Below, in pieces: positions 36,589-51,318 of a DNA stretch of 60,899 nt. The stretch comes from Crocinitomicaceae bacterium (GTDB lineage: Bacteria; Bacteroidota; Bacteroidia; Flavobacteriales_D; Parvicellaceae): assembly GCA_002723085.1 (NCBI GenBank), contig PBNK01000031.1, positions 1 through 60,899 of the forward strand, written 5' to 3'. The position numbers were made by a program, and so were the translations under genes. Numbering within the stretch: the first letter of the stretch is position 1; each line of letters opens with the position of its first letter. The notes under the pieces are model-generated. The model worked only from the letters and a program-made list of their open reading frames with translations, was not told where the DNA came from and did not search any database.

Positions 36589-37518
36589 CTAATAATGCCA
36601 AAGATCATGCTCTTTTTCAAACATTTCTTGCTTAATTCTCTCAGATTCTAGTAAAGCATTCAAGCCTGTCCAACTAGGAGATATTTTTCTATCAAACATA
36701 TTGCTTTCTTTAGAAATATAACTTGAAAACTCACGTTTCATAAACAAGTCATTAAAACTCATTTTTTGAGCATCATTTTGTGGATTAAATACTGAATAAC
36801 GTTGAAATATATACCTACAATCAGGAAAATAAACCCAAAACAAACGCTTTATACCTTCAATCTCACCATTTAATTTATTTTTTGCATAAACAACAGGAGC
36901 AATACCAATAATTCTTACATCCATTACTGATCTTTGTTTGTCAAAAAACCAATCTTCCTTTATTTCATATCTTATAATATCAGCAGAAGTATATGGTGTG
37001 GGAACCTCAACAGGATAAGGTTTGTTAGTAGCCGGATCATAAACTGGATCATCATTTAAATCTAAACTATCTTCTGTTTTGTAAGTGTTAAAAAACCCAT
37101 TCAATTGTTTAACAAAATCAGGATCACTAACATTTCCAGTTTTAGATTTTACAGGAAATCTAAATTTATCATCTTGAGTAACACCTTCATCATAAATTGT
37201 AAGTTCTTTTTCAACCAATACAGCTTGCTTAAGAACATCAAAAAGAGAAATTCTATCAGATGTGGGCTCAATTGGATAGAACAATTTATGATTCATTTTT
37301 TCTCGAACATCAAGTACTCTCCAAACTCTTTTCGCCCACATTACGTCAGCCTGACGCATGTGAATATAAGGGACAACTCTTTTAGTTGGAAGGTGTTCTT
37401 GAATATAAAAACCATCCATAACTGAAGACTGCTGCATATTAGAACCTGGTAATTGAGCAGAACAAAATAATGATAAAAATGTAAAAAATGATAAAAATTT
37501 AATCTGTTTCATAACCAT
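36589..37518 (-). CDS. gldN: Type IX secretion component GldN
   Basis: A 309-residue protein with a signal peptide (about residues 1-21). It has the PorN/GldN pattern: DGFYIQEHLPTKRVVPYIHMRQADVMWAKRVWRVLDVREKMNHKLFYP, ISLFDVLKQ, and later IRYEIKEDWFFDKQRSVMDVRIIGIAPV. GldN forms the periplasmic ring with GldK at the outer membrane in the T9SS core. It is the last gene of sprF-gldK-gldL-gldM-gldN, 5 bases after gldM and followed by a terminator. Confidence 0.96.
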   Translation of the reverse strand: MVMKQIKFLSFFTFLSLFCSAQLPGSNMQQSSVMDGFYIQEHLPTKRVVPYIHMRQADVMWAKRVWRVLDVREKMNHKLFYPIEPTSDRISLFDVLKQAVLVEKELTIYDEGVTQDDKFRFPVKSKTGNVSDPDFVKQLNGFFNTYKTEDSLDLNDDPVYDPATNKPYPVEVPTPYTSADIIRYEIKEDWFFDKQRSVMDVRIIGIAPVVYAKNKLNGEIEGIKRLFWVYFPDCRYIFQRYSVFNPQNDAQKMSFNDLFMKREFSSYISKESNMFDRKISPSWTGLNALLESERIKQEMFEKEHDLWHY

Positions 37519-37523
37519 TGTGT

Positions 37524-39542
37524 TTATTGTAACTTAATTATGATTCCACCCTTAAGTGGATAAGGTGAACCGCTTGGACCTTTAACCATAATGTCAGAAA
37601 AGGTAAGGTTTCCTCCTTTTGGAACCGTACCAATTAATGCTTTCATTTTAGGAGTCAATCTATTTGATTTGGATGTTAAACTTACAGGGCTACCTCCTTT
37701 AATAACATTCAACATAAATCCTTTAACCTCATAAGTAACATTTAAGGGACTATTCCCCAATTTAGCTTTAATAACACTAAACCTTTTTGCATTTGCTTTT
37801 GTCATTCTTCCACCCGACTGGCCTCCAAATTCTGGTGTTGGATCAGGAAGAGGGAAAACTCTGAATTTTTCATTTGTTAATTCATTATTTTTTCCGGTAT
37901 CATCTTGTCCTGTTACAATTATTTGAACTTCTTTAAGTCTTGGATTAGAAACAGTAGCAATATAGTTCCCATCTTTATCTGGTTTAGAAGTTATACTACA
38001 ACCTTTACAACTTACTTTAACTTTTTCTGGATTATAACCAGAAGCAGAAACCTTTATTTTGTTTTTCCAACCCAAATATAATACTTGTAAATCAGCAGCT
38101 GAAATCGCGGCATTTGGTGCACCAACAGAATAATTAAATTTCCAAGGTTTCCATTTTTTAACGCCTTTTTCTTCAACTGCTATTTCTCCAACTAAAACAT
38201 GATCTCCTACACCACCAGACAACCTTACTTCTTCACCTGCTTTTCCTGTGAACTCAATAGCTTCAGATGTTTTAGTAGTATCATCAATCCAATATTTCAA
38301 CTCCATTGCTTCAGTTGAATCATAGGCAGCAATCATTACTTTTAAACCTAGTGAATCCCCTTGATTTATGTAAGATGTAGATGAAAATGCTAATGGATCA
38401 ATCTTATTAAAGTTAAATGATTGAACTTTAACTCTAGAAGCAATTAATTGAGAAGCTAAAGTTTGAACTTGAAGTACATCTGATCTTACTGACGTCATGA
38501 CTGCTGAAGCTGCAACAATTGGTGCATGGTCAAACTGACCGAAAATCCAAGGATATTCTTCACCATGATTCATTACTTTTTGCGGTATAGTCATCCTAAC
38601 AAAAATATCTCTAATAACATCTTTGTCTTCTGGACCTATTTTACCTTCTTTAACTTGAATATCCATTACAGAATCTACTAATGTTGTAAATGCATTCTCA
38701 TCTTGTTCAGTAATAAGAAATTCAGGATCAGCAATCATTGAGGTGTCAAATTCATACGTTTTAATTTCTCCTGTTTTTTTATCTGTGTATTCATGGTTGG
38801 CAATCAACGAAATTAGGTCATTTCTGTAATGAATTAAATTCTCCATCATGTGAAGACCTTCTGGTGCTATCATTTCAAAACTCTCTCCAGCTAATAGTCG
38901 TGTTGGGGTATCGTAATCATCTTTCTTAGAATAACCTGAAAGATCTTTAATATGAATGTAACCTAATTCATCTACATCAAATAAGTTGTTGTGGTATTCC
39001 CCTTCTTCTTCATGATGACCACCCTCTCCGTGATCTTCATGAACAACTAGTCCTAAAGAATTAACTTTATCAGCTAATGCTTTAATCTTCGATTGTCCTG
39101 ATGATTTAGCACTTTCGTCTTTACCACTATTTTTGAGAACCGCCTCATTCATATTAGCGTACTCTATATCTTCAAAATCTTCAAAAGTAGTGGAAGCATC
39201 TGCAGCAGAAATTAATAGATATAAGTTTCTTTTAACTAAATCATTACACATGTCTCTAGTTAAATTTATAACTTCATCATTGGTTTTCTTATGAGCTTCA
39301 ACTCTAGCAATTTCTTTTGGAGCTGCACCAGTTGATTTTAAAGTTGCTAAACTGATATCAAAAACTTCATTTATATTTTGATTGTAATCTTCTGTTTGCT
39401 TTATACTTTTTTCAATTTTATTATTTAAAGTAACAAAAGCATTGATAATTTCCTTAGAAACATTCATAGCCAAAAGAGCCATAAGTACTAAGTACATTAA
39501 TCCAACCATTTTCTGTCTTGGGGTTTCTTTACCGCCTCCCAT
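37524..39542 (-). CDS. gldM: Type IX secretion motor protein GldM (long form)
   Basis: A 672-residue protein with a short cytoplasmic GGGKETPRQKMV start, one transmembrane helix (about residues 12-30, LMYLVLMALLAMNVSKEI) and a large periplasmic part ending in the PorM/GldM C-terminal domains. The family is usually near 515 residues; the additional about 150 residues lie in the N-terminal periplasmic region and include an acidic His-rich segment (about residues 168-186, five His). With GldL it forms the proton-driven motor of T9SS and gliding. Confidence 0.95.
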   Translation of the reverse strand: MGGGKETPRQKMVGLMYLVLMALLAMNVSKEIINAFVTLNNKIEKSIKQTEDYNQNINEVFDISLATLKSTGAAPKEIARVEAHKKTNDEVINLTRDMCNDLVKRNLYLLISAADASTTFEDFEDIEYANMNEAVLKNSGKDESAKSSGQSKIKALADKVNSLGLVVHEDHGEGGHHEEEGEYHNNLFDVDELGYIHIKDLSGYSKKDDYDTPTRLLAGESFEMIAPEGLHMMENLIHYRNDLISLIANHEYTDKKTGEIKTYEFDTSMIADPEFLITEQDENAFTTLVDSVMDIQVKEGKIGPEDKDVIRDIFVRMTIPQKVMNHGEEYPWIFGQFDHAPIVAASAVMTSVRSDVLQVQTLASQLIASRVKVQSFNFNKIDPLAFSSTSYINQGDSLGLKVMIAAYDSTEAMELKYWIDDTTKTSEAIEFTGKAGEEVRLSGGVGDHVLVGEIAVEEKGVKKWKPWKFNYSVGAPNAAISAADLQVLYLGWKNKIKVSASGYNPEKVKVSCKGCSITSKPDKDGNYIATVSNPRLKEVQIIVTGQDDTGKNNELTNEKFRVFPLPDPTPEFGGQSGGRMTKANAKRFSVIKAKLGNSPLNVTYEVKGFMLNVIKGGSPVSLTSKSNRLTPKMKALIGTVPKGGNLTFSDIMVKGPSGSPYPLKGGIIIKLQ

Positions 39543-39579: not shown

Positions 39580-40467
39580 TTATTTATTAACGTTCATTGC
39601 TGAAAGCATATTACCATAAACTGTGTTTAATGATTCTAAGTTTTCTGTCAATTGCGCCATAGTTTCTTTATACTTTCTTGTATCATCAAGAGAAGAATGT
39701 AAGTTCCCCATTAATTCATTAATACCAGTATACATTTCATTACTTACATTAAGGTGCTCATTGGCCCCTTTAACTTGCATTTCATAAACATTATTTAATG
39801 CAGCTAAATTGGTAGATACTTTCTCCAATTGTTCAGTATAATTAGTATCAGTATTAGTTGACGCAGTAAGTTGTTCTACAGTATTAGCAGCTTTTTCATA
39901 AGCATCACCTAATTGATTTGCTTTTTCTGAAATTGAAGATGATGCCTTCTCATAAACTCCACCCATTTCACCAACTTTAGCAGATGCACCTTTTAGGCTA
40001 TCAACATATTCCTCAGTAGCATCAGAAGCAGATGAAATGTCACCTAATTTATTTGCATTTTCACTTAAATTTCTCATTCCGGAACCAAGACTTTCTATTA
40101 ACTCAGGCTCAATTTTGGCTTTAGCCAACATGTTGTCTAACTGTTCAATTACAGTATCATCATTAACAACAGTATCATCACTACTAATATCTGGAAGAGC
40201 ATGTACATCATCATCTTCACCATGTCCCATTGCTAATTCGGGATAAGCTAAAGTCCAGTCAATTTCTTCGTGTAAAGGCTCAAATGCAGAAAGTATAAAT
40301 ATAACAGCCTCAATTCCTAGACCACCAATCAACATTATTGTGGCACCTGGCCAGTGTTGAATTTTAAACATGGCTCCAACAATTACTACTGCTCCACCCC
40401 AACCATATACAAATTTCATTATGGTTTTAAATTGCTTACTTTCAAAAAAACTATTTCCGCTGCTCAT
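39580..40467 (-). CDS. gldL: Type IX secretion motor protein GldL (long form)
   Basis: A 295-residue protein with two inner-membrane helices near the N-terminus (FVYGWGGAVVIVGAMFKIQHWPGATIMLIGGLGIEAVIFILS, about residues 18-60). The Glu in the second helix is the presumed proton-path residue. A long acidic and helical cytoplasmic tail follows. Typical members are roughly 200-220 residues; here the coiled-coil tail (about residues 115-290, rich in Asn, Ser and Glu) is extended. It partners GldM in the motor. Confidence 0.95.
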   Translation of the reverse strand: MSSGNSFFESKQFKTIMKFVYGWGGAVVIVGAMFKIQHWPGATIMLIGGLGIEAVIFILSAFEPLHEEIDWTLAYPELAMGHGEDDDVHALPDISSDDTVVNDDTVIEQLDNMLAKAKIEPELIESLGSGMRNLSENANKLGDISSASDATEEYVDSLKGASAKVGEMGGVYEKASSSISEKANQLGDAYEKAANTVEQLTASTNTDTNYTEQLEKVSTNLAALNNVYEMQVKGANEHLNVSNEMYTGINELMGNLHSSLDDTRKYKETMAQLTENLESLNTVYGNMLSAMNVNK

Positions 40468-40564: not shown

Positions 40565-42064
40565 TTAAAAATCGCCTTCTTTATTTGGCCCACCTCTTCC
40601 TAAATGATTCATAACACTTCTAAATCCAATGTATGATTTAGCAGTATCTTGGTACTCATATGAACGAGTTCCGGTTTGAAGAAAATAACCAATATCTTTC
40701 CATGAACCACCTCTAATTACTTTTCTTTTCATTGAAGGGGAATCATGATCTAAAGCATGATAAATATATTCAGTATTCATATCGTGTCCAAATTCGTACA
40801 TTGACTCGTCATAAGCTGTTCTGCACCACTCGGAAACATTTCCAGCCATACAGTATAACCCAAAATCATTAGGATGGTACGAATTTGCTTTTACAGTATG
40901 ATATCCACCATCTTCCATATACCTTCCACGAATAGGTTTGAAATTACCTAAGAAACACCCTCTTTTATTCCTAATGTAAGGTCCTCCCCAAGGATAAGGG
41001 CTTAAATCTAAACCTCCTCTAGCTGCATATTCCCACTCAGTTTCACTAGGCAATCTAAAGTCTTGTACGAAAGATTGACCTCTACCTTTTCTAAAGTTAT
41101 TTAACAACTGTGTTCTCCACACATTGAAAGCATTTGCTTGCTGCCAAGTAACTCCAACAACAGGATAATCATCATAAGCAGGATGCCAAAAATACATGTT
41201 AGCCATATGTTCATTATCACTATATGTAAAATCATGAATCCAACATAAGGTATCAGGATAAACGTTAATAATTTCTTCAATGATGAACCTTGTTCTATCC
41301 TCGTGACCTCTAATTGCATTGTGTTGACCTTTTTTATTTCTGTGTCCTAAATCTTTATCTTTTCCCCTTTGTATTGTTCCATCTTGTGGATAAGGCAAGC
41401 CAGTATTGTTCATCTTTTGTCTGTGGGTAGCGTCATCATCAAAATCTTCATTAGAAACCATATTAATTTGAGGTCGGCCTTTTTTAGCGGCCTCTTGCAA
41501 ATCAATCCAATAATATTTAAACATTAACTTTCTAGTATCAATCTCTTTTCTATTATAAAATTGTTGCCTGTCGTCTAAAAACAATGGCTTTAATGCAATA
41601 ACCTGCTCAGCATTTCGATCATTTTCACTATGTGCAATCCAAGTTAATCTTTCAGCCCAATTTAGCCTCCACTCAGATGGATCTTTTTCTTGAAGTTCAT
41701 TATCATAAGTAGGTACCAACCAAGTTTCATTATCTTCTTCACCTAAAATTCTTCTAGCAAGAGAATCTCTTACCCAATAAACAAATTGACGATATTCATT
41801 GTTTGTTATTTCAGTTTGATCCATATAAAATGCTCCGACAGAAACTGTCTTAGTTTTACTAGTGTGGGAGCCTGGTACATCTTGATCACTTTGGCCCATA
41901 TTAAACCCACCTGCTGGTATGTACAGCATACCATAAGGATCAGTAGAGTAGTAAGGCATTCTCCCCTGAACTCCAATGACTTCACCATATTGATCTGCAC
42001 CAGTAACACAACTTGTGATTATAAAGGCTATCGATAAAAAATAAAATAACTTTTTCATGTTCAA
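40565..42064 (-). CDS. gldK: Type IX secretion lipoprotein GldK
   Basis: A 499-residue lipoprotein (FIITSC, Cys at residue 19) with a formylglycine-generating-enzyme/sulfatase-modifying-factor fold: YIPAGGFNMGQSDQD, FYMDQTEITNNEYRQFVYW, VGVTWQQANAFNVW, RLPSETEWEYAARGG, and GNVSEWCRTAYDES. GldK (PorK) builds the outer-membrane-attached ring with GldN. It follows the sprF-like gene on the minus strand and is followed by gldL. Confidence 0.97.
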   Translation of the reverse strand: MNMKKLFYFLSIAFIITSCVTGADQYGEVIGVQGRMPYYSTDPYGMLYIPAGGFNMGQSDQDVPGSHTSKTKTVSVGAFYMDQTEITNNEYRQFVYWVRDSLARRILGEEDNETWLVPTYDNELQEKDPSEWRLNWAERLTWIAHSENDRNAEQVIALKPLFLDDRQQFYNRKEIDTRKLMFKYYWIDLQEAAKKGRPQINMVSNEDFDDDATHRQKMNNTGLPYPQDGTIQRGKDKDLGHRNKKGQHNAIRGHEDRTRFIIEEIINVYPDTLCWIHDFTYSDNEHMANMYFWHPAYDDYPVVGVTWQQANAFNVWRTQLLNNFRKGRGQSFVQDFRLPSETEWEYAARGGLDLSPYPWGGPYIRNKRGCFLGNFKPIRGRYMEDGGYHTVKANSYHPNDFGLYCMAGNVSEWCRTAYDESMYEFGHDMNTEYIYHALDHDSPSMKRKVIRGGSWKDIGYFLQTGTRSYEYQDTAKSYIGFRSVMNHLGRGGPNKEGDF

Positions 42065-42151: not shown

Positions 42152-43090
42152 TTACAAGAATCTTGGATTCTTTGATTTCTCTAGTGTTGGTGGTTTAGCT
42201 AAACTAAAACAATAATTTAGCATGATATCATGTGAACCCGAACTGTAATCTCCAATTACACTCGTTGTAATTCCATAAGCATAACCAATCCTTAAAGTAC
42301 TTCCGTCAGAAAAGGAATGTTGATAACCAACCATTGGGGCTATTTCATCACCAATCCTATAAGTCAACCCACCCCAGGCCATATTTCTATACAAAACATT
42401 AACATTTAAATCCATAATTGTGGAAGCCGCATCTGATTTTATAAGCAAATTAGGTCTTAAAGTAAAATCAGGATTAACAATATATTTGTAACCAGCAGTT
42501 ATCCAATAATGATGAACATTTTGAACATTTAATGAATTCATGCTAAACCCTCCAAGATGTGTTGTTGAAATTCCTAAATATAATTCTTCAGTTTTATAAA
42601 AAACACCTAAATTGATGTCAGGTGAGATGCCACTAGCATTATCTAGTGGAATAGAATTATCATCACCGTGAACATAAGAACTTCCTTGTTCAGGAGTTAT
42701 CCAAGTGGCATTAAAACTTTTTTGAAGAATTCCAGCGCTCAATCCTATCCCTAACTTCCCCGCACCAAGTCCCATGTGATAAGAATAACTCAATCTTGCT
42801 ATATTATTGCTTTCAAAACCCAATTGATCATTGATATAAGAAAAACCTAATCCGCCTCTTAACATCTCAATTGGAGAGTGTACGTTAAGTAATTTAGTTG
42901 AAGGATTTCCAGAAAAACCCGTCCATTGTTCACGAGTAATCATTGTTCCACAAATATTGTTATTCATTCCTGCATAACCAGGATTGAAAGACAAATTATC
43001 AAACATATAATGAGTCAATTGGTAATCTTGCTGGGCAAAACATGTCCCAAATAGAGAACCTAAAGCAATAATATACGCATAAATCTTCAT
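42152..43090 (-). CDS. PorP/SprF-family outer-membrane protein
   Basis: A 312-residue protein with a signal peptide (about residues 1-19) and the family opening QDYQLTHYMFDNLSFNPGYAGMNNNICGTMITREQWTGFSGNPSTKLLNVHSPI, followed by amphipathic beta strands to the C-terminus. SprF/PorP proteins assist secretion or anchoring of type B cargo such as SprB. The gene heads the gldKLMN set. It may pair with the type B protein at 13.4 kb, but many paralogues exist in such genomes, so this is only a possibility. Confidence 0.92.
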   Translation of the reverse strand: MKIYAYIIALGSLFGTCFAQQDYQLTHYMFDNLSFNPGYAGMNNNICGTMITREQWTGFSGNPSTKLLNVHSPIEMLRGGLGFSYINDQLGFESNNIARLSYSYHMGLGAGKLGIGLSAGILQKSFNATWITPEQGSSYVHGDDNSIPLDNASGISPDINLGVFYKTEELYLGISTTHLGGFSMNSLNVQNVHHYWITAGYKYIVNPDFTLRPNLLIKSDAASTIMDLNVNVLYRNMAWGGLTYRIGDEIAPMVGYQHSFSDGSTLRIGYAYGITTSVIGDYSSGSHDIMLNYCFSLAKPPTLEKSKNPRFL

Positions 43091-43219: not shown

Positions 43220-44362
43220 CTAATTAAGCTTTCTATATGTTCGCCACCATAAGTCAGGTATAATACCAGATTGAGCATTTTGATAATCTATCATGTCACA
43301 TGGAATCAAATGATGCCTTTCAAATTTAAACTCTTTTATAGGTGGATAAGGAACCTCTAACCACCATCTATCCGACTTGGGACTTTTGTGAAAAACCAAA
43401 TTATGATTTAACTCTTCATGAAAAACAACATATTTTAAATGATCTTGCTTTGTCCCAATTGGAAAATCACCTTTTCTTTCTGAAAACCCAGTTATTAAAA
43501 AATACATCATTTGAGCGATAAGCATCGCATCTTCTTGATAAAGAACATTATTTTGAAAGTTATGAATTCCAATACAAGAAATTTTATCACTAATTCCAGC
43601 ATATTTCATTAATTGACAAACTTCATTCCCAAATAAACCATTTGGGCCAGAATCATAAGCGCTATTAAATTCACTTTTTCTAATGACAGACATATCTACA
43701 CTTAATAAATCTGCATTTCTTAAATGAGGTTCTGCAATTTTTATATCATTTTGCAAAGCCCCTAATCGAACTAAATCAAAATATAAATCATCAAAAAATT
43801 TAATTTGCTGATTTGATATGTAGTATTGTTGATGGGCTAATTGAGAAAAATTAAAAAGGTAACTTGGTTCATGAAGAAGAATGTGATTTAGAAAATTAGA
43901 AGAATTTAATTTCTCTTTGTCGTCAACCAAAAGATTTACTTTTTGATCAAGGACTACTAAATTAACCAATTGTTCTGATTTTTGATAACCTAAAAAATTT
44001 GCGTATGTTAAATATTGATCACCGCCAATTATCAAAAGGAGCTTCCCTTTATTACTAATTAATGATGTTATTTCTTTAATTGCAGAAATCGTATCTTCTT
44101 GTTTATCACCAGGTATGAAAACTCCCAAATCAGAAATTTTAACATCTTTATTAAGATAAAGTTTATTTAAACATTGCCTTAAAGGATCTATCGGTTGTTG
44201 GCCATCAATTTGTTTATTATTTGAATCGTAAATTGTAAAAAACACAACATCAGATTCTTCCCAATCAGGAAACTTATCATTGTAAGACTCAATGCAAGAT
44301 CCTATAGTTCCCTTTAGAACTTCATTTTTTTCGGTTGGTCTAAAATAAATATCAATATTCAT
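43220..44362 (-). CDS. Ureohydrolase (arginase/formimidoylglutamase-fold) protein with degenerate metal site
   Basis: A 380-residue protein that databases usually label formimidoylglutamase. The fold is visible: LLIIGGDQYL (residues 109-118), VVLDQKVNLL (136-145), LLSVDMSVIRKSEF (219-232), plus a C-terminal WWLEVPYP and HHLIPCDMIDY. The six manganese ligands of arginase (H, D-x-H-x-D, D-x-D) reduce here to Asp139 and Asp223; the others are Gln116, Lys141, Asn143 and Ser225. It is therefore probably catalytically dead. It lies 6 bases downstream of topA and before the T9SS genes, an order conserved in Flavobacteriales as I recall. A structural or regulatory role is inferred. Confidence 0.85.
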   Translation of the reverse strand: MNIDIYFRPTEKNEVLKGTIGSCIESYNDKFPDWEESDVVFFTIYDSNNKQIDGQQPIDPLRQCLNKLYLNKDVKISDLGVFIPGDKQEDTISAIKEITSLISNKGKLLLIIGGDQYLTYANFLGYQKSEQLVNLVVLDQKVNLLVDDKEKLNSSNFLNHILLHEPSYLFNFSQLAHQQYYISNQQIKFFDDLYFDLVRLGALQNDIKIAEPHLRNADLLSVDMSVIRKSEFNSAYDSGPNGLFGNEVCQLMKYAGISDKISCIGIHNFQNNVLYQEDAMLIAQMMYFLITGFSERKGDFPIGTKQDHLKYVVFHEELNHNLVFHKSPKSDRWWLEVPYPPIKEFKFERHHLIPCDMIDYQNAQSGIIPDLWWRTYRKLN

Positions 44363-44368
44363 GATGTT

Positions 44369-46810
44369 TTATTTCTTTTTCAACATTTCTTTTGCCTGTT
44401 CTAAAGAAATGTCGGCCGGATCTTGATTTTTATCTAATTGAATTTTTTTCTTTCCTGAAACAACAAAATGTCTTCCCCATCTGCCTTTTTGAACTGATAT
44501 ACCTTGCTCCTCCCAATTGTGAACAAACTTTTCAATCTCTTTTCTTTTTTTATTTTCAATTAGCTCTGTGATATCAGATTCAGATAAATTGTCAAAATCA
44601 TATTTTTTAGAAACATTAATAAACATTTCATTCCATTTAATAAATGGACCAAACCTTCCTTTTCCTTTTGAAACAGGAAGTTCATCGTAGTGCATGATTG
44701 GAGCATCTGCTTTCTTTTTTTCTTCAACCCAAACCAAAGCTTCAGATAACCCTATATCATCGGCATCAATTCCTTTTGGAACAGAAACATTTAATTTATC
44801 AATTTGTATATAAGGTCCAAATCTTCCTAATTTCAGAAACACATCAACACCTTCAATTTGTCCTAAATTTTTTGGGTATTGAAATAAAGATAAAGCTTCA
44901 TCTAATGAAATAGTTTTAATGTTTTGATCCGTCTTAAGGCTTGCAAATTTTGGTTTTTTTGATTCGTCAGAAGTTTCTCCAATCTGAGCTATTGGTCCAT
45001 ATTTACCTAATTTAACATAGACAGGCTCTCCAGTCCCCGGCTCTTCACCAAGCAATCTTTCACCTGTAGCTCTAGCAGCATTTTCTTGAGTGGATTCTAT
45101 ATTTTTATGAAATGGATGATAAAATTTATCCAACATATTGGTCCACTCCAAATCTCCATTAGCTATTAAGTCTAATTCCTTTTCAACATCAGCTGTGAAA
45201 TTATAATCTAAAATTTTTTGGAAATGTTCTACTAAAAATTCATTAACTACATCACCTGTTGTAGTTGGAATAAGTTTATTTCTATCAGCTCCAAAACGTT
45301 CCTGTCTTGTTTCAATTTTTAACTCGTCACTTATTAAAGAGAAAAATTTATAATCCCTTAAATTTCCTTCTAATTCCTTTTTTTCAACATAACCCCTATC
45401 CTGAATAGTTTTAATAGTTGGAGCATAAGTTGATGGCCTGCCAATTCCCAAATCTTCTAATTTTTTGACTAATGATGCTTCAGTAAACCTAGCAGGTGGC
45501 CTTGAAAATTTTTGAACTCCAGTAATTCCCAAACAATTTAAAGATTGACCTTCTTTTATGCTTGGCAATAAACCAGAACCTTCTTGGTCTTCATCATCAT
45601 CCTTGCTTTCTATGTAAACCTTTAAAAACCCATCAAATCTTATCATTTCACCAACAGCAACAAAAGGATTTTTTTGTATTGAATGACCTATTTGAACATT
45701 AGTCCTTTCAATTTCTGCATCACTCATTTGCGAAGCAATTGTTCTTTTCCAAATTAATTGATATAGTTTATCTTCAGGTGAACCATCTCCTATAGCTTCC
45801 AATGAAAAGTTAGAAGGCCTAATAGCTTCGTGAGCTTCTTGAGCAGATTTATTTTTATTTTGGTACTTTCTTGGATTGCAATAATTAGCTCCAAATTGCC
45901 TAGTAATTTGTTCTTGTGCAGCATTCATAGCGTCATTTGATAAACTAACAGAATCTGTTCTCATGTAAGTGATTTTTCCAGATTCGTATAACCGCTGTGC
46001 GACCGACATCGTTCTTGACACATTAAACCCTAATTTTCGACTTGCTTCTTGTTGGAGTGTAGAAGTAATAAAAGGAGCAGATGGAGTTCTTTTACCAGGT
46101 TTTTTAGTTATTTTATTTACTTTAAAAACCTTCCCTTTTGCATTTTCTAAGAAGGAAACCACATCGTCTTCATTTGTAAAATTTGAAGCTATTTCAGCTT
46201 TAAATTTTGCTCCATTTGCATCAAACTCAGCTACAACTTTAAAAGAAATAAAAGGAACATGATTTTGAATTTCTTGTTCTCTTTCAACAATTAATCTTAC
46301 CGTGACTGATTGCACCCTACCTGCAGAAAGGCTAGGCCTTATTTTTCTCCACAAAACTGGAGATAATTCAAAGCCTACAATTCTATCTAATATTCTTCTT
46401 GCCTGTTGTGAATTAACTAAATCTTCATTAATATTTCTTGGGTTATCAACCGCCTTTAATACTGCTTTCTTTGTTATTTCATTAAATGTAATTCTTCTAG
46501 TATTTTCTGGCTTAAGTTTCAAAGCCTCCTTTAAATGCCAAGATATAGCTTCACCTTCACGATCCTCATCAGTAGCCAACCAAACTGTTTCACAGTTTTT
46601 TGCTATTTTATTCAATTCACTTACTACTTTTTTCTTATCTGATGGAACAATATATGTAGGTTTGAATTTATTTTCTATATCAATAGGATCTCCCTTTTTA
46701 GGCAATTCCCTAATATGTCCATAACAAGACCTAACAACAAAGTCTTTTCCTAAAAAACCTTCAATAGTTTTTGCTTTTGCAGGGGACTCAACTATAACTA
46801 AATTACTCAT
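44369..46810 (-). CDS. topA: DNA topoisomerase I
   Basis: An 813-residue type IA topoisomerase. Toprim domain: VIVESPAKAKTIEGFLG and the DEDREGE metal motif (residues 81-87). Catalytic region: SGKITYMRTDSVSLS with active-site Tyr282. The C-terminal third (about residues 570-813) has Toprim_Crpt-type repeats instead of the zinc ribbons of E. coli TopA, as usual in this phylum. It relaxes negative supercoils. It is divergent from miaB and is probably co-transcribed with the ureohydrolase-like gene. Confidence 0.98.
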   Translation of the reverse strand: MSNLVIVESPAKAKTIEGFLGKDFVVRSCYGHIRELPKKGDPIDIENKFKPTYIVPSDKKKVVSELNKIAKNCETVWLATDEDREGEAISWHLKEALKLKPENTRRITFNEITKKAVLKAVDNPRNINEDLVNSQQARRILDRIVGFELSPVLWRKIRPSLSAGRVQSVTVRLIVEREQEIQNHVPFISFKVVAEFDANGAKFKAEIASNFTNEDDVVSFLENAKGKVFKVNKITKKPGKRTPSAPFITSTLQQEASRKLGFNVSRTMSVAQRLYESGKITYMRTDSVSLSNDAMNAAQEQITRQFGANYCNPRKYQNKNKSAQEAHEAIRPSNFSLEAIGDGSPEDKLYQLIWKRTIASQMSDAEIERTNVQIGHSIQKNPFVAVGEMIRFDGFLKVYIESKDDDEDQEGSGLLPSIKEGQSLNCLGITGVQKFSRPPARFTEASLVKKLEDLGIGRPSTYAPTIKTIQDRGYVEKKELEGNLRDYKFFSLISDELKIETRQERFGADRNKLIPTTTGDVVNEFLVEHFQKILDYNFTADVEKELDLIANGDLEWTNMLDKFYHPFHKNIESTQENAARATGERLLGEEPGTGEPVYVKLGKYGPIAQIGETSDESKKPKFASLKTDQNIKTISLDEALSLFQYPKNLGQIEGVDVFLKLGRFGPYIQIDKLNVSVPKGIDADDIGLSEALVWVEEKKKADAPIMHYDELPVSKGKGRFGPFIKWNEMFINVSKKYDFDNLSESDITELIENKKRKEIEKFVHNWEEQGISVQKGRWGRHFVVSGKKKIQLDKNQDPADISLEQAKEMLKKK

Positions 46811-47004: not shown

Positions 47005-48417
47005 ATGGAAAAAACCATTGAAGAATCTAAACAAGGCCAAGCTACTATTATAAAAAAGAACAATAGTTTTTCTAAAAAATTATATTTGGAAAGCTATGGG
47101 TGCCAAATGAACTTTTCTGACAGTGAAATTGTTGCTTCTATTCTAGCAAATGAAGGTTTTGAAACCACTCGTCAACTTGAGGATTCTGATTTAATTTTAC
47201 TTAATACATGTTCAATTAGAGAAAAAGCTGAACAAACGGTTAGAACTAGATTAAGATCATTTAATAAATTAAAAAAAAGAAAATCTCACCTTATAGTTGG
47301 CATGCTTGGTTGTATGGCTGAGAGAATGAAATCAACTTTACTTGAAGAAGAAAAATTAGTTGATTTAGTTGTTGGCCCTGATGCATACCGAGATTTACCG
47401 CGTTTAATTGAAGAAGTAGAAGGAGGCCAAAAAAGTGTTAATGTTTTACTTTCAAGAGAAGAAACATATGCAGACATAAGCCCAGTAAGACTAGATAAAA
47501 ATGGGATAAGTGGGTTTATTTCAATAATGCGAGGATGTGATAACATGTGTACCTTTTGTGTTGTTCCATTTACTAGAGGCAGAGAAAGAAGCAGAAACCC
47601 TTTAACAATTGTTGCTGAGGCAAGAGACTTATATAATAAAGGATATAAAGAAGTTACCCTTCTAGGTCAAAATGTTGATAGTTATAGATGGAACATTTCA
47701 AAAAAAGGTGATATAATCGATGAAAATACTTCTACAACAAATTTTGCACAACTTCTAGCATTAGTCGCTAAAGTTGCACCTGATTTAAGAGTTCGTTTTT
47801 CAACCTCCCACCCAAAAGATATGACTGATGAAGTTTTAAGAACAATAGCTAGTCATAAAAACATATGTAATTATATTCATTTGCCAGTTCAATCTGGAAA
47901 TTCTGAAATTTTAAAAAAGATGAACCGCGGATATTCAAGAGAATGGTATTTGGAAAGAATAAAAGCTATCAAAAAAATCATTCCTAATTGTGCTATCTCA
48001 ACTGATATTATCACAGGTTTTTGTGGGGAAAGCGATGAACAACATCAAGAAACAATATCTCTTTTAAAAGAAGTTGAATTTGACTTTTCATATATGTTTT
48101 TTTATTCTGAAAGGCCTAAAACATTAGCTGAAAGAAAATACGATGATGACATTCCTTTATCAACTAAGAAAAGCAGACTTCAAGAGGTTATAGATTTACA
48201 ACATATTCATTCCAAAAAGAAAAATGAGAATGCTATTGGTAATACTTTTGAAGTATTAATTGAAGGATTTTCCAAAAAATCAAACGAAATGCTTTCAGGA
48301 AGAAATGACCAAAATACTAAGGTGGTTTTTCCTAAGGGAAATGCTAAAGTTGGTGAATATGTTAATGTGAAAATTGAAAGCTGTACAACAGCAACTTTAA
48401 TTGGGAAAATAATTTAA
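47005..48417 (+). CDS. miaB: tRNA-2-methylthio-N6-dimethylallyladenosine synthase MiaB
   Basis: A 470-residue radical-SAM methylthiotransferase. The N-terminal domain holds the auxiliary cluster cysteines Cys33 ([10 protein letters not shown]), Cys69 (LNTCSIRE) and Cys103; the radical-SAM motif [20 protein letters not shown] has Cys178/Cys182/Cys185; a TRAM domain ends the protein. It adds the methylthio group to i6A37 of tRNAs. It starts the plus-strand series through groEL and is 1 base from the sigma-54 regulator. Confidence 0.97.
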
Positions 48418-48418
48418 A

Positions 48419-49678
48419 ATGAACATTCAATCTGTTAAAGAAAGATTTGGTATTATTGGAAATGTTGATGCTTTAAATCGTGCACTTAATGTGGCTATTC
48501 AAGTTGCTCCGACTGATATTTCAGTATTAATTACTGGTCAAAGCGGAACAGGTAAAGAAAGCATGCCACAAATAATTCATCATTATAGTTCTAGAAAACA
48601 TAGTGAATATATTGCTGTAAACTGTGGCGCTATACCTGAGGGTACTATTGACTCTGAGTTATTTGGACATGAAAAAGGTGCTTTTACAGGTGCAACAGAT
48701 AGTAGAAAAGGTTATTTTGAAGTTGCTGACGGTGGAACAATTTTTCTTGACGAAGTTGCAGAACTTCCATTAACTACTCAAGTAAGACTACTTAGAATAT
48801 TAGAAACTGGAGAATACATTAGAGTTGGTTCATCGAAAGTTCAAAAAACTAATGTGAGAATTATTGCAGCTACTAATGAAAACATGCAAAAAGCAATTAA
48901 TAAAGGAAAGTTTAGAGAAGACTTATTTTACAGACTTAGCACAGTACCTATTTCTCTTCCTCCTTTGAAAGAAAGAAAAGATGACATTCATCTTCTTTTT
49001 AGAAAATTTGCAGCTGACTTTGCTGAGAAATACAGAATGCCAGGGATAAGATTAAATGAAGATGCCACTAAAACACTTCTTAATTACCACTGGCCTGGAA
49101 ATATCAGACAACTAAAAAACATAACTGAACAAATTTCAGTAATCGAAAATGAAAGAATGGTTTCTAATGAAACTTTTTTAAAATACCTTCCAATTGAAGA
49201 AAAACAACAAAATCTTCCCATGGTAATTAACAAAGAGGGTGCAAATAATGACTTTTCTGAAAGAGAAATATTATATAAATTATTGTTCGATATGAGAAAT
49301 GATATTACTGAAATGAAAAGAGTAATCGTTGACTTGATGAAAAACAATAACCTTTCTAACCATGAAAAATCTGAATTAATTACTCGTTTAAACAACCAAA
49401 AAGATGTAAATTATGACATCAATAACGATTTAAAACAAGAAACTAATATCACTATTTCTGATAACTCTTTTTCAAATAATCAAATTTCTTCAATTTCAGA
49501 ACCTATTCAAGATAGCATAGAAATAGAAGAATCTTTATCTTTAGAAGAAAGAGAAAAAGAATTAATAAAAAAAGCGCTCTCAAAGCACAATGGAAGAAGA
49601 AAAAATGCAGCTCTTGAATTAGGAATTTCAGAAAGAACTTTATACAGAAAAATTAAGGAATACGACATAACCAAATAG
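48419..49678 (+). CDS. Sigma-54 interaction (AAA+) transcription regulator without receiver domain
   Basis: A 419-residue protein. Its N-terminus is only about 30 residues before the AAA+ domain: Walker A TGQSGTGKES (about residues 39-48), GAFTGA loop (87-92) that contacts sigma-54, and Walker B GGTIFLDEVAELP (about 105-116). A C-terminal Fis-type HTH (about 380-416, GRRKNAALELGISERTLYRKI) binds DNA. Between them is an acidic, Asn-rich linker (about 255-375). There is no sensor domain, so regulation must come by partner or expression. It is 1 base after miaB and its end precedes the lptE-like TTG start by 3 bases, a gene order common in Flavobacteriales. Confidence 0.93.
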   Translation: MNIQSVKERFGIIGNVDALNRALNVAIQVAPTDISVLITGQSGTGKESMPQIIHHYSSRKHSEYIAVNCGAIPEGTIDSELFGHEKGAFTGATDSRKGYFEVADGGTIFLDEVAELPLTTQVRLLRILETGEYIRVGSSKVQKTNVRIIAATNENMQKAINKGKFREDLFYRLSTVPISLPPLKERKDDIHLLFRKFAADFAEKYRMPGIRLNEDATKTLLNYHWPGNIRQLKNITEQISVIENERMVSNETFLKYLPIEEKQQNLPMVINKEGANNDFSEREILYKLLFDMRNDITEMKRVIVDLMKNNNLSNHEKSELITRLNNQKDVNYDINNDLKQETNITISDNSFSNNQISSISEPIQDSIEIEESLSLEEREKELIKKALSKHNGRRKNAALELGISERTLYRKIKEYDITK

Positions 49679-49681
49679 CAT

Positions 49682-50203
49682 TTGAAAAAAATTTTATCAT
49701 ATATAATTATCGCTCAACTTATCATATCCTGTAGTTTACCTCAATTCACATTTAAATCTGGCGGAAAAGAAACAAAAGAAATTGATGCAGAAACTGTTCA
49801 AGTTGATTTTTTTGAAAACAATAGCTCTCTTGGTGGAGCATCATTAAGTGCTTCATTTACGGAAGATTTAAGAGACATCATGCAATCCCAAACAAAACTG
49901 AACCTTGTAGCAAATAAAGGAGATATTCAAATTTATGGGAAAATTAAAGATTTCAGCATCTCTCCTATTAACATTCAGTCTGGAAGTGAATCAGCTGCAC
50001 AAAATAGATTAAAAATGATTGTTTTAGTAAATACATATTTTAATAAAAAAGACTCTATAGGTCTGGAAAATACTTCCTTTAATGCTTTTGTTGATTATGA
50101 TGCACAAAACGATTTTAACTCTTTAGAAGAAAGTTTAATTGAAAGTCTTAATTATCAAATTACTCAAGATATATTTGATAAAGTATTTGGTGGAGAATGG
50201 TAA
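49682..50203 (+). CDS. lptE: LptE-like LPS assembly lipoprotein
   Basis: A 173-residue lipoprotein (IAQLIISCSLP, Cys near residue 17) starting at a TTG. The mature domain FKSGGKETKEIDAETVQVDFFENNSSLGG, ASLSASFTEDLRDIMQSQTKLNLV, IYGKIKDFSISPI and AQNRLKMIVLVNTYFNKKD follows the LptE/DUF4136-like pattern in which the lipoprotein plugs the LptD barrel. The phylum-specific gene order (miaB, regulator, lptE, TPR, secG) supports the name. The start overlaps no gene; its 3' end overlaps the next gene by 7 bases. Confidence 0.82.
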   Translation: MKKILSYIIIAQLIISCSLPQFTFKSGGKETKEIDAETVQVDFFENNSSLGGASLSASFTEDLRDIMQSQTKLNLVANKGDIQIYGKIKDFSISPINIQSGSESAAQNRLKMIVLVNTYFNKKDSIGLENTSFNAFVDYDAQNDFNSLEESLIESLNYQITQDIFDKVFGGEW

Positions 50204-50985
50204 TAAACTCAATTAAAAATATCAACTCTATAATTGAACACCCAGAAAACACTTCTGATAAAGATCTTGACTACCTATACAATCTATCTATTAAGTATCC
50301 TTATTCTGGAATAACTCAATTATTAGTCGCTAAAATTCTACATGTTCAGGACAGAACAGGTTATGCAGAACAATTAAAAAAAGCAGCTTTCAACTGTTCT
50401 GATCGTACTGTAATTTACAATTATATTCATAGAGAAAAATTAGTTTCAACTATTGAAAAAGCTGATAAAGAAATATCAAATAATAACTCTGAAATCAAAA
50501 ATGATGAAATTTTAGAATTAGAACAAAACATTATTAGCTCTGTAATTGACAGCAATATTTATCAAGAAATAGAAGAATACGAATTAATTAATGATAAAAC
50601 TGAAAAAGACTCTGAAGAGGCACCTTTATATGATCAAAATAGTGAAATGACTTTTTCAAAATGGATTGCACTAAACAAGAATAAATCCTTTCTCAAGGAA
50701 AAACAAAATGCAAATATTGATCAACTTTTATTAAACCTTTCTGAAAGAAACAAAAAAAGAGTTTCAAAAAAATCTAATCAATTTTTCTCTCCAATTGAAG
50801 CCGCGAAATTAAGTTTAATTGATAATAATGAATTAGTAACTGAAACATTAGCTGAAATACACATAAAACAAGGTAACTACCCAAAAGCAATTAAAATATA
50901 CCAACAATTAATATTGAAAAATCCAGAAAAAAAAGCTTTCTTTGCAAGCCGAATTAATTATATTAATTTGAAAACAAAATTATAA
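50197..50985 (+). CDS. TPR-like protein preceding secG
   Basis: A 262-residue soluble protein. The N-terminal 70 residues are helical (LDYLYNLSIKYPYSGITQLLVAKILHVQDRTGYAEQLKKAA), the middle is an acidic disordered stretch (about 75-170), and the C-terminal part has a TPR-type helix pair (LAEIHIKQGNYPKAIKIYQQLILKNPEKKAFFASRI). No signal peptide is visible. It is sandwiched between lptE and secG. Function is unknown, but an envelope-biogenesis accessory role would fit the location. Confidence 0.78.
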   Translation: MVINSIKNINSIIEHPENTSDKDLDYLYNLSIKYPYSGITQLLVAKILHVQDRTGYAEQLKKAAFNCSDRTVIYNYIHREKLVSTIEKADKEISNNNSEIKNDEILELEQNIISSVIDSNIYQEIEEYELINDKTEKDSEEAPLYDQNSEMTFSKWIALNKNKSFLKEKQNANIDQLLLNLSERNKKRVSKKSNQFFSPIEAAKLSLIDNNELVTETLAEIHIKQGNYPKAIKIYQQLILKNPEKKAFFASRINYINLKTKL

Positions 50986-51000
50986 TATAAAAAATATTTT

Positions 51001-51318
51001 ATGAGTACCCTTTTAATGATCTTATCTACAATTGCTGCTGTTTTATTGATTATTATTGTTTTATTACAAAACTCAAAAGGTGGAGGGTTAGACTCTTCAT
51101 TTGGAAATGTGAATCAATTAGGCGGAGTTGCTCAATCTACTGAAACTATTGAAAAAGCAACTTGGACTTTAGCTGGAGTTATTGGTTTCTTAAGTCTTTT
51201 AGCTGCAATGAATATTGGATCAAGTCCTGATTTAAAATCAAATATTGACCCATCTTCTAATATTCAAAACTTAGACAACAGTATTGAAAACACTGGAATT
51301 CAAGAAGAAAATTTATAA
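51001..51318 (+). CDS. secG: Preprotein translocase subunit SecG
   Basis: A 105-residue protein with two hydrophobic helices (about residues 2-23 and 56-72) flanking the conserved LLQNSKGGGLDSSFG motif. SecG assists SecYEG translocation at the inner membrane. The C-terminal Asn/Ser/Asp-rich tail is typical for Bacteroidota. It precedes groES by about 170 bases, which contain regulatory palindromes. Confidence 0.96.
   Translation: MSTLLMILSTIAAVLLIIIVLLQNSKGGGLDSSFGNVNQLGGVAQSTETIEKATWTLAGVIGFLSLLAAMNIGSSPDLKSNIDPSSNIQNLDNSIENTGIQEENL

Follow-up and report, generated by a model that had tools for sequence, protein, structure and literature searches.

The window, by which we mean the whole 60,899-nucleotide stretch of DNA analyzed here, carries an open reading frame of 380 codons that runs from ATG to stop on the minus strand and spans exactly positions 43220–44362. 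It encodes a 380-residue pseudo-ureohydrolase, hereafter protein X. An earlier note on this DNA had placed the gene correctly without giving its strand; in a reading-frame check, the plus strand across 43220–44362 was full of stops. An arginase-fold core covers approximately residues 16–298 and is followed by a C-terminal extension (residues 300–380; 43223–43465, minus strand) that is recognized from alignment, conservation, and a structure model of its own. Curated models order the minus-strand genes as topA (type I DNA topoisomerase; 44369–46810), X, a gene for a PorP/SprF family T9SS membrane protein (42152–43090; TIGR03519, 211 bits), gldK (40565–42064; TIGR03525, 574 bits), gldL (39580–40467; TIGR03513, 223 bits), gldM (37524–39542; TIGR03517, 217 bits), and gldN (36589–37518; TIGR03523, 191 bits). 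These NCBIfam matches, all over cut-off, bear out the neighbors topA and sprF-gldKLMN that the note had named. The stop codon of topA precedes the start of X by 6 bp, and the PorP/SprF family gene lies 129 bp downstream of X. Divergent from topA on the plus strand is miaB (47005–48417; NCBIfam model over cut-off), part of a conserved regional block (47005–51318) with genes for a sigma-54 regulator, a protein in the LptE position, an unnamed protein, and a SecG-like protein. By eye, X has no signal peptide, and scans for promoters and terminators around it returned matches at chance level.

Protein X belongs to the arginase family and is confidently predicted to have its fold. It matches the Pfam Arginase profile (PF00491) with 30.3 bits (cut-off 22), and an AlphaFold model built with 53 sequences in the alignment has a pLDDT of 88.6 and a pTM of 0.89. 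When this predicted model was compared with solved structures using VIA, residues 16–297 matched formiminoglutamase of Trypanosoma cruzi (PDB 4myn) with a Z of 31.7 and an rmsd of 2.4 over 264 residues, and HutG of Bacillus subtilis (3m1r) with a Z of 28.6; metformin hydrolase subunits scored slightly lower. Structures of HutG (3m1r, 1xfk, and 4mxr) are the nearest ones solved and share the arginase-superfamily fold over residues 16–298. Conversely, the HutG equivalog model (TIGR01227) scores only 32.1 bits, far below its cut-off of 229, and X further differs from HutG in its lost ligands, its additional C-terminal domain, and its location outside a hut cluster.

The binuclear metal site of active enzymes is held by six ligands, His-Asp-His-Asp-Asp-Asp. 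In the window, the corresponding motifs are GGDQ116, LD139QK141VN143, and VD223MS225. As the note had read them, two ligands are kept (Asp139 and Asp223) and the rest are replaced by Gln116 (codon 44015–44017), Lys141 for His and Asn143 for Asp (codons 139–143, 43934–43948), and Ser225 for Asp (codons 223–225, 43688–43696; all on the minus strand). We counted ligands in 205 orthologs from across the class, after removal of duplicate sequences. Not one has all six ligands or the combination of His141 and Asp225, and both of the latter are gone in 193. As a rule, the other three Asp ligands survive, and positions 141 and 225 are where loss is constant. Position 116 is Gln in 160 of the 205 and position 143 is Asp in 177, which makes Asn143 of the window a minority state. 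The usual state of the family is Q-D-[KRS]-D-D-[S/N/G], which in arginase terms is a metal-A set retained with a change from His to Gln and a lost metal B. Ligand loss, which the note had proposed to examine by alignment, is therefore general; of the evidence to the contrary that it had named, orthologs with intact ligands were absent from the 205, and no hut gene was among the identified neighbors. Five ligands, the most observed, are present in ortholog L124, likely through a regain, as fewer are found in its relatives in the set.

Conservation of X is concentrated away from the old metal site. Columns 141 and 225 rank approximately 300th and 200th of 380 by conservation. Residues E211, R215, G242, and C355 are invariant among orthologs and F324, W333, W334, and Y360 are at least 98% conserved. 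In copies away from gld genes, the metal site decays further (e.g., to SNKDSS, LSRHSS, or PGQHES), and E211, R215, G242, and C355 are still invariant and F324, W333, W334, and Y360 almost so. Relative to a congener, the dN/dS of X is 0.158, indicating purifying selection; values for GldK and TopA are 0.144 and 0.034, respectively. On these sequence comparisons, the pattern is that of a working protein that probably does something other than metal-dependent hydrolysis. We consider X a conserved pseudo-ureohydrolase, as the note had suggested, and not a decaying hutG, because ligands have been lost generally, other residues are invariant, there is an extra C-terminal domain, and dN/dS is 0.16. 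In two other copies (L218:8965–9828 and L219:8581–9510), the arginase domain appears to be missing its N-terminal half with the first metal motifs; its second half remains, as does the C-terminal domain.

Most of the near-invariant aromatic residues of X are in the C-terminal domain, where F324, W333, W334, C355, Y360, P369, and W372 are all near-invariant. Modeled alone, the approximately 80 residues are predicted to form four strands and two helices (pLDDT 82.6). Pfam has no match for the window's own copy of the domain; searches of Pfam and of PDB sequences with the domain gave weak matches only, and Foldseek gave no credible relative (best E of 0.42). The best VIA match, a putative adenylate cyclase with a Z of 4.6, is below the tool's own noise guide and was rejected as a relative. 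The absence of a credible match does not prove a new fold. The domain is absent from four ordinary arginase-family matches from outside the class (L223–L226).

Protein X is distributed across the class. In the same order, searches with X itself found it in 187 of 199 genomes, representing 61 of 62 genera. For the class, a profile of twelve orthologs detected it in 240 of 253 high-quality genomes (∼95%), two of which (G258 and G294) gave weak matches that we discounted. These genome sets are samples that include many metagenome bins, all counts are uncorrected for phylogeny, and our group codes (f1, f52, etc.) are not taxonomic names. Outside the class, a search of the phylum returned only weaker arginase-family matches.

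The position of X is likewise conserved, in agreement with the note. We examined flanks of 8–9 kb from well over 100 genomes together with 80 named loci, using a profile for each neighbor. The order topA-X-porP-gldKLMN spans many families of the class, and porP or gldK adjoins X in 146 of 205 distinct loci. Among 151 loci flanked by 5 kb or more on each side, X lies between topA and porP/gldK in 99, beside topA only in 9, beside gld genes only in 5, and beside neither in 38; a parsimony count on a quick tree requires 16 changes of context. In the fetched loci, the median gap is 23 bp from topA to X and 162 bp from X to the next gene, porP. The conserved arrangement is larger than the T9SS genes and reads SecG, unnamed gene, LptE position, sigma-54 regulator, and MiaB on one side and TopA, X, PorP, and GldKLMN on the other. 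All four outer genes were present in 93 of 114 loci that have topA and miaB. The genes at 47005–51318 of the window (miaB, the sigma-54 activator, the lipoprotein-like gene in the LptE position, the unnamed gene, and the SecG-like gene) are as syntenic as those from topA to gldN. Adjacency of X to T9SS genes alone therefore says little, because a block with neighbors unrelated to the T9SS is equally conserved.

Our preferred reading, to which we assign a probability of roughly 0.6, is that X is a cytosolic, noncatalytic binding or scaffold protein, a class-wide pseudo-ureohydrolase that is probably cotranscribed with topA. The second metal site of an arginase-superfamily core would have disappeared, most likely ahead of the radiation of the class, and the protein would now carry a family-specific C-terminal domain. 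Function would depend on the helix with E211-xxx-R215, the Gly-rich loops of the core, and the F-KS-RWW, PC-Y, and P-WW elements of the C-terminal domain, and would no longer reside in the old metal site. Some observations fit this less well. Three Asp residues and a Gln, a potential site for a single metal, are kept in most lineages, and no active ureohydrolase adjoins X. A role in the T9SS also accounts better than one independent of it for how strongly X is linked to T9SS genes in most families and for the lineage in which X is at a second T9SS locus.

In a clearly less likely reading, X is a dedicated factor for assembly or regulation of the T9SS or gliding machine; it might be a cytosolic partner of the GldL/GldM motor, for instance, or control its synthesis. 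Either porP or gldK neighbors X across many families (104 of the 151 loci with 5-kb flanks). In one lineage (L204, L218, and L219; genomes G257, G395, and G611), X is instead convergent beside murF-gldJ-PorP family-porU and not next to topA or gldKLMN, with porV at this second T9SS locus in L218 and its relative in L219. A hand tally of the 253 high-quality genomes found both X and the T9SS in 236, X only in 2, the T9SS only in 10, and neither in 5, a co-occurrence with a Fisher p of 7e-6 that is uncorrected for phylogeny.

Other observations argue against such a dedicated role, which the note had favored. In one family, X is present in 138 of 138 high-quality genomes, of which 15 are without SprA and 5 of these also without GldL; one of these five genomes is a single contig. 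Profile searches for SprA and GldL were our only criterion for absence of the T9SS. Conversely, X is missing from ten high-quality genomes with SprA, and X and the T9SS therefore do not always occur together. Within the locus, X is closer to topA than to porP, and the genes for MiaB, the sigma-54 regulator, the protein in the LptE position, and the SecG-like protein are equally syntenic. Apart from the lineage beside murF-gldJ, relocated copies of X have mostly unrelated neighbors, and there is no enrichment of T9SS genes among the families listed. Papers on the T9SS that we found do not mention X. Coevolution inferred from mirror trees, once the signals of TopA and MiaB were removed, was rejected as evidence for a T9SS role: partial r of X is ∼0.45–0.49 with PorP, GldK, and GldN and 0.16 with GldL, but the unrelated gene in the LptE position correlates about equally with PorP, GldK, and GldN (0.42–0.55). 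Unlike the well-supported claim of a conserved pseudoenzyme, the suggestion that X works in secretion or gliding is treated here as a hypothesis because of its retention without SprA and GldL, its absence from genomes with SprA, the gaps to its neighbors, the synteny of the whole block, and the unspecific coevolution. In most lineages, X may have a partner in or near the T9SS, but this cannot be all that X does. A bolder version, which we think rather unlikely, is that X is an unrecognized, ancient component that couples the T9SS and gliding machine, or the envelope as a whole, either to expression of topA or to some signal in the cytosol, the fold of a metabolic enzyme having become a class-wide adaptor with a new C-terminal domain. 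Separately, in G785, G805, G237, and others of group code f52, GldL is matched and SprA is undetectable, leaving a motor gene without a translocon. In locus L233, X likewise lies beside murF as at the second T9SS locus, with only that side visible.

An improbable alternative is that X is an active enzyme with a remodeled, mononuclear site on the metal-A ligands (Gln116, Asp139, Asp143, and Asp223), with Lys or Arg at 141 in place of metal B. Copies linked to gld genes have these residues in 91%, 97%, 90%, and 97% of cases, respectively, with Lys or Arg predominating at position 141, and the residual site of three Asp and a Gln may yet support unusual chemistry. The window copy nonetheless has Asn143, decayed sites (RDRNNN, QGTADS, and ATRPNG) also occur in gld-linked copies, and only 43% of copies from lineages unlinked to gld have Gln116, with other residues invariant. 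The ATRPNG site, fully decayed, belongs to a gld-adjacent ortholog (L247, genome G225).

The other two readings are far less credible than these. That X is a genuine formimidoylglutamase of histidine degradation would be consistent with its best structural matches being formiminoglutamases (4myn and 3m1r) and with hutH elsewhere in the source genome, but its score of 32 bits against 229, the incomplete ligands of every ortholog, and the lack of a hut gene among the identified neighbors of X make this almost inconceivable; the name, as the note had recognized, is unfit. Equally negligible is the idea that X is a degenerating remnant that linkage has kept in place, which would account for the lost metal site but not for the dN/dS, the invariant residues, the presence in ∼95% of high-quality class genomes, or the retention after relocation.

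If X is a noncatalytic binding or scaffold protein, as in the preferred reading, the closest precedent for its mode of action is MetCb. This metal-free pseudoenzyme is a structural partner that supports an active ureohydrolase subunit (PMC11271267). The metformin hydrolase subunit MetCb/MfmB (PDB 8x3g, 8ryi, and 8snf) has three to five of the six ligands changed and serves as a binding partner and not as a catalyst. Ligand counts and the predicted model indicate that X likewise has lost its metal site and kept the fold. Unlike MetCb, which is beside the active MetCa, X has no adjacent active paralog. The two other arginase-family genes of the source genome, both with intact motifs, are on different contigs (C17 and C46); judged by eye from motifs and neighbors, they appear to be agmatinase-like and arginase-like. 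Also unlike MetCb, X has a C-terminal domain of its own, and X is conserved through the whole class. Because it lacks an adjacent active partner, we do not class X with the MetCb type. TbARG of Trypanosoma brucei (PDB 4rhm) has an arginase fold with lost ligands, as in X, and the engineered R151H in that structure implies Arg at the metal-B His position, where X has Arg or Lys; TbARG is eukaryotic and differs in gene context. The PorP/SprF, GldK, GldL, GldM, and GldN proteins are encoded at the same locus and on the same strand in most families sampled. In contrast to these T9SS core proteins, X is of a different protein family, lacks a signal peptide as judged by eye, and persists in some genomes in which SprA and GldL were not detected.

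Although pseudo-ureohydrolases have been described before and T9SS core loci have received much study, we found no paper on the X gene itself. Searches of the open-access literature that paired T9SS, gldK, or gliding with the usual names of the gene returned no study of X, and a wider search returned an annotation mention only. The latter is a genome paper and species description in which "formiminoglutamase" is the sole histidine-degradation step of the strain (PMC11278836), and we infer that this is probably X misread. The gene is present in ∼95% of high-quality genomes of the class, usually at the T9SS core locus, and tends to be read as an enzyme of histidine degradation, which it very probably is not; this misreading can distort pathway predictions. 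As a conserved pseudoenzyme with defined invariant residues outside the old active site, X is a clear target for a knock-out, and the natural genomes that keep it without SprA and GldL separate a T9SS role from another role.

One further arrangement was observed. In 17 loci (e.g., L122, L137, L189, and L222), a gene for an SDR/NAD-epimerase (HpnA-like, below cut-off) divergently adjoins X. We do not take this as a link to the epimerase, as the arrangement is lineage-bound and unexplained. The lineages that have it include names of Sphingobacteriales (Arcticibacter and Albibacterium).
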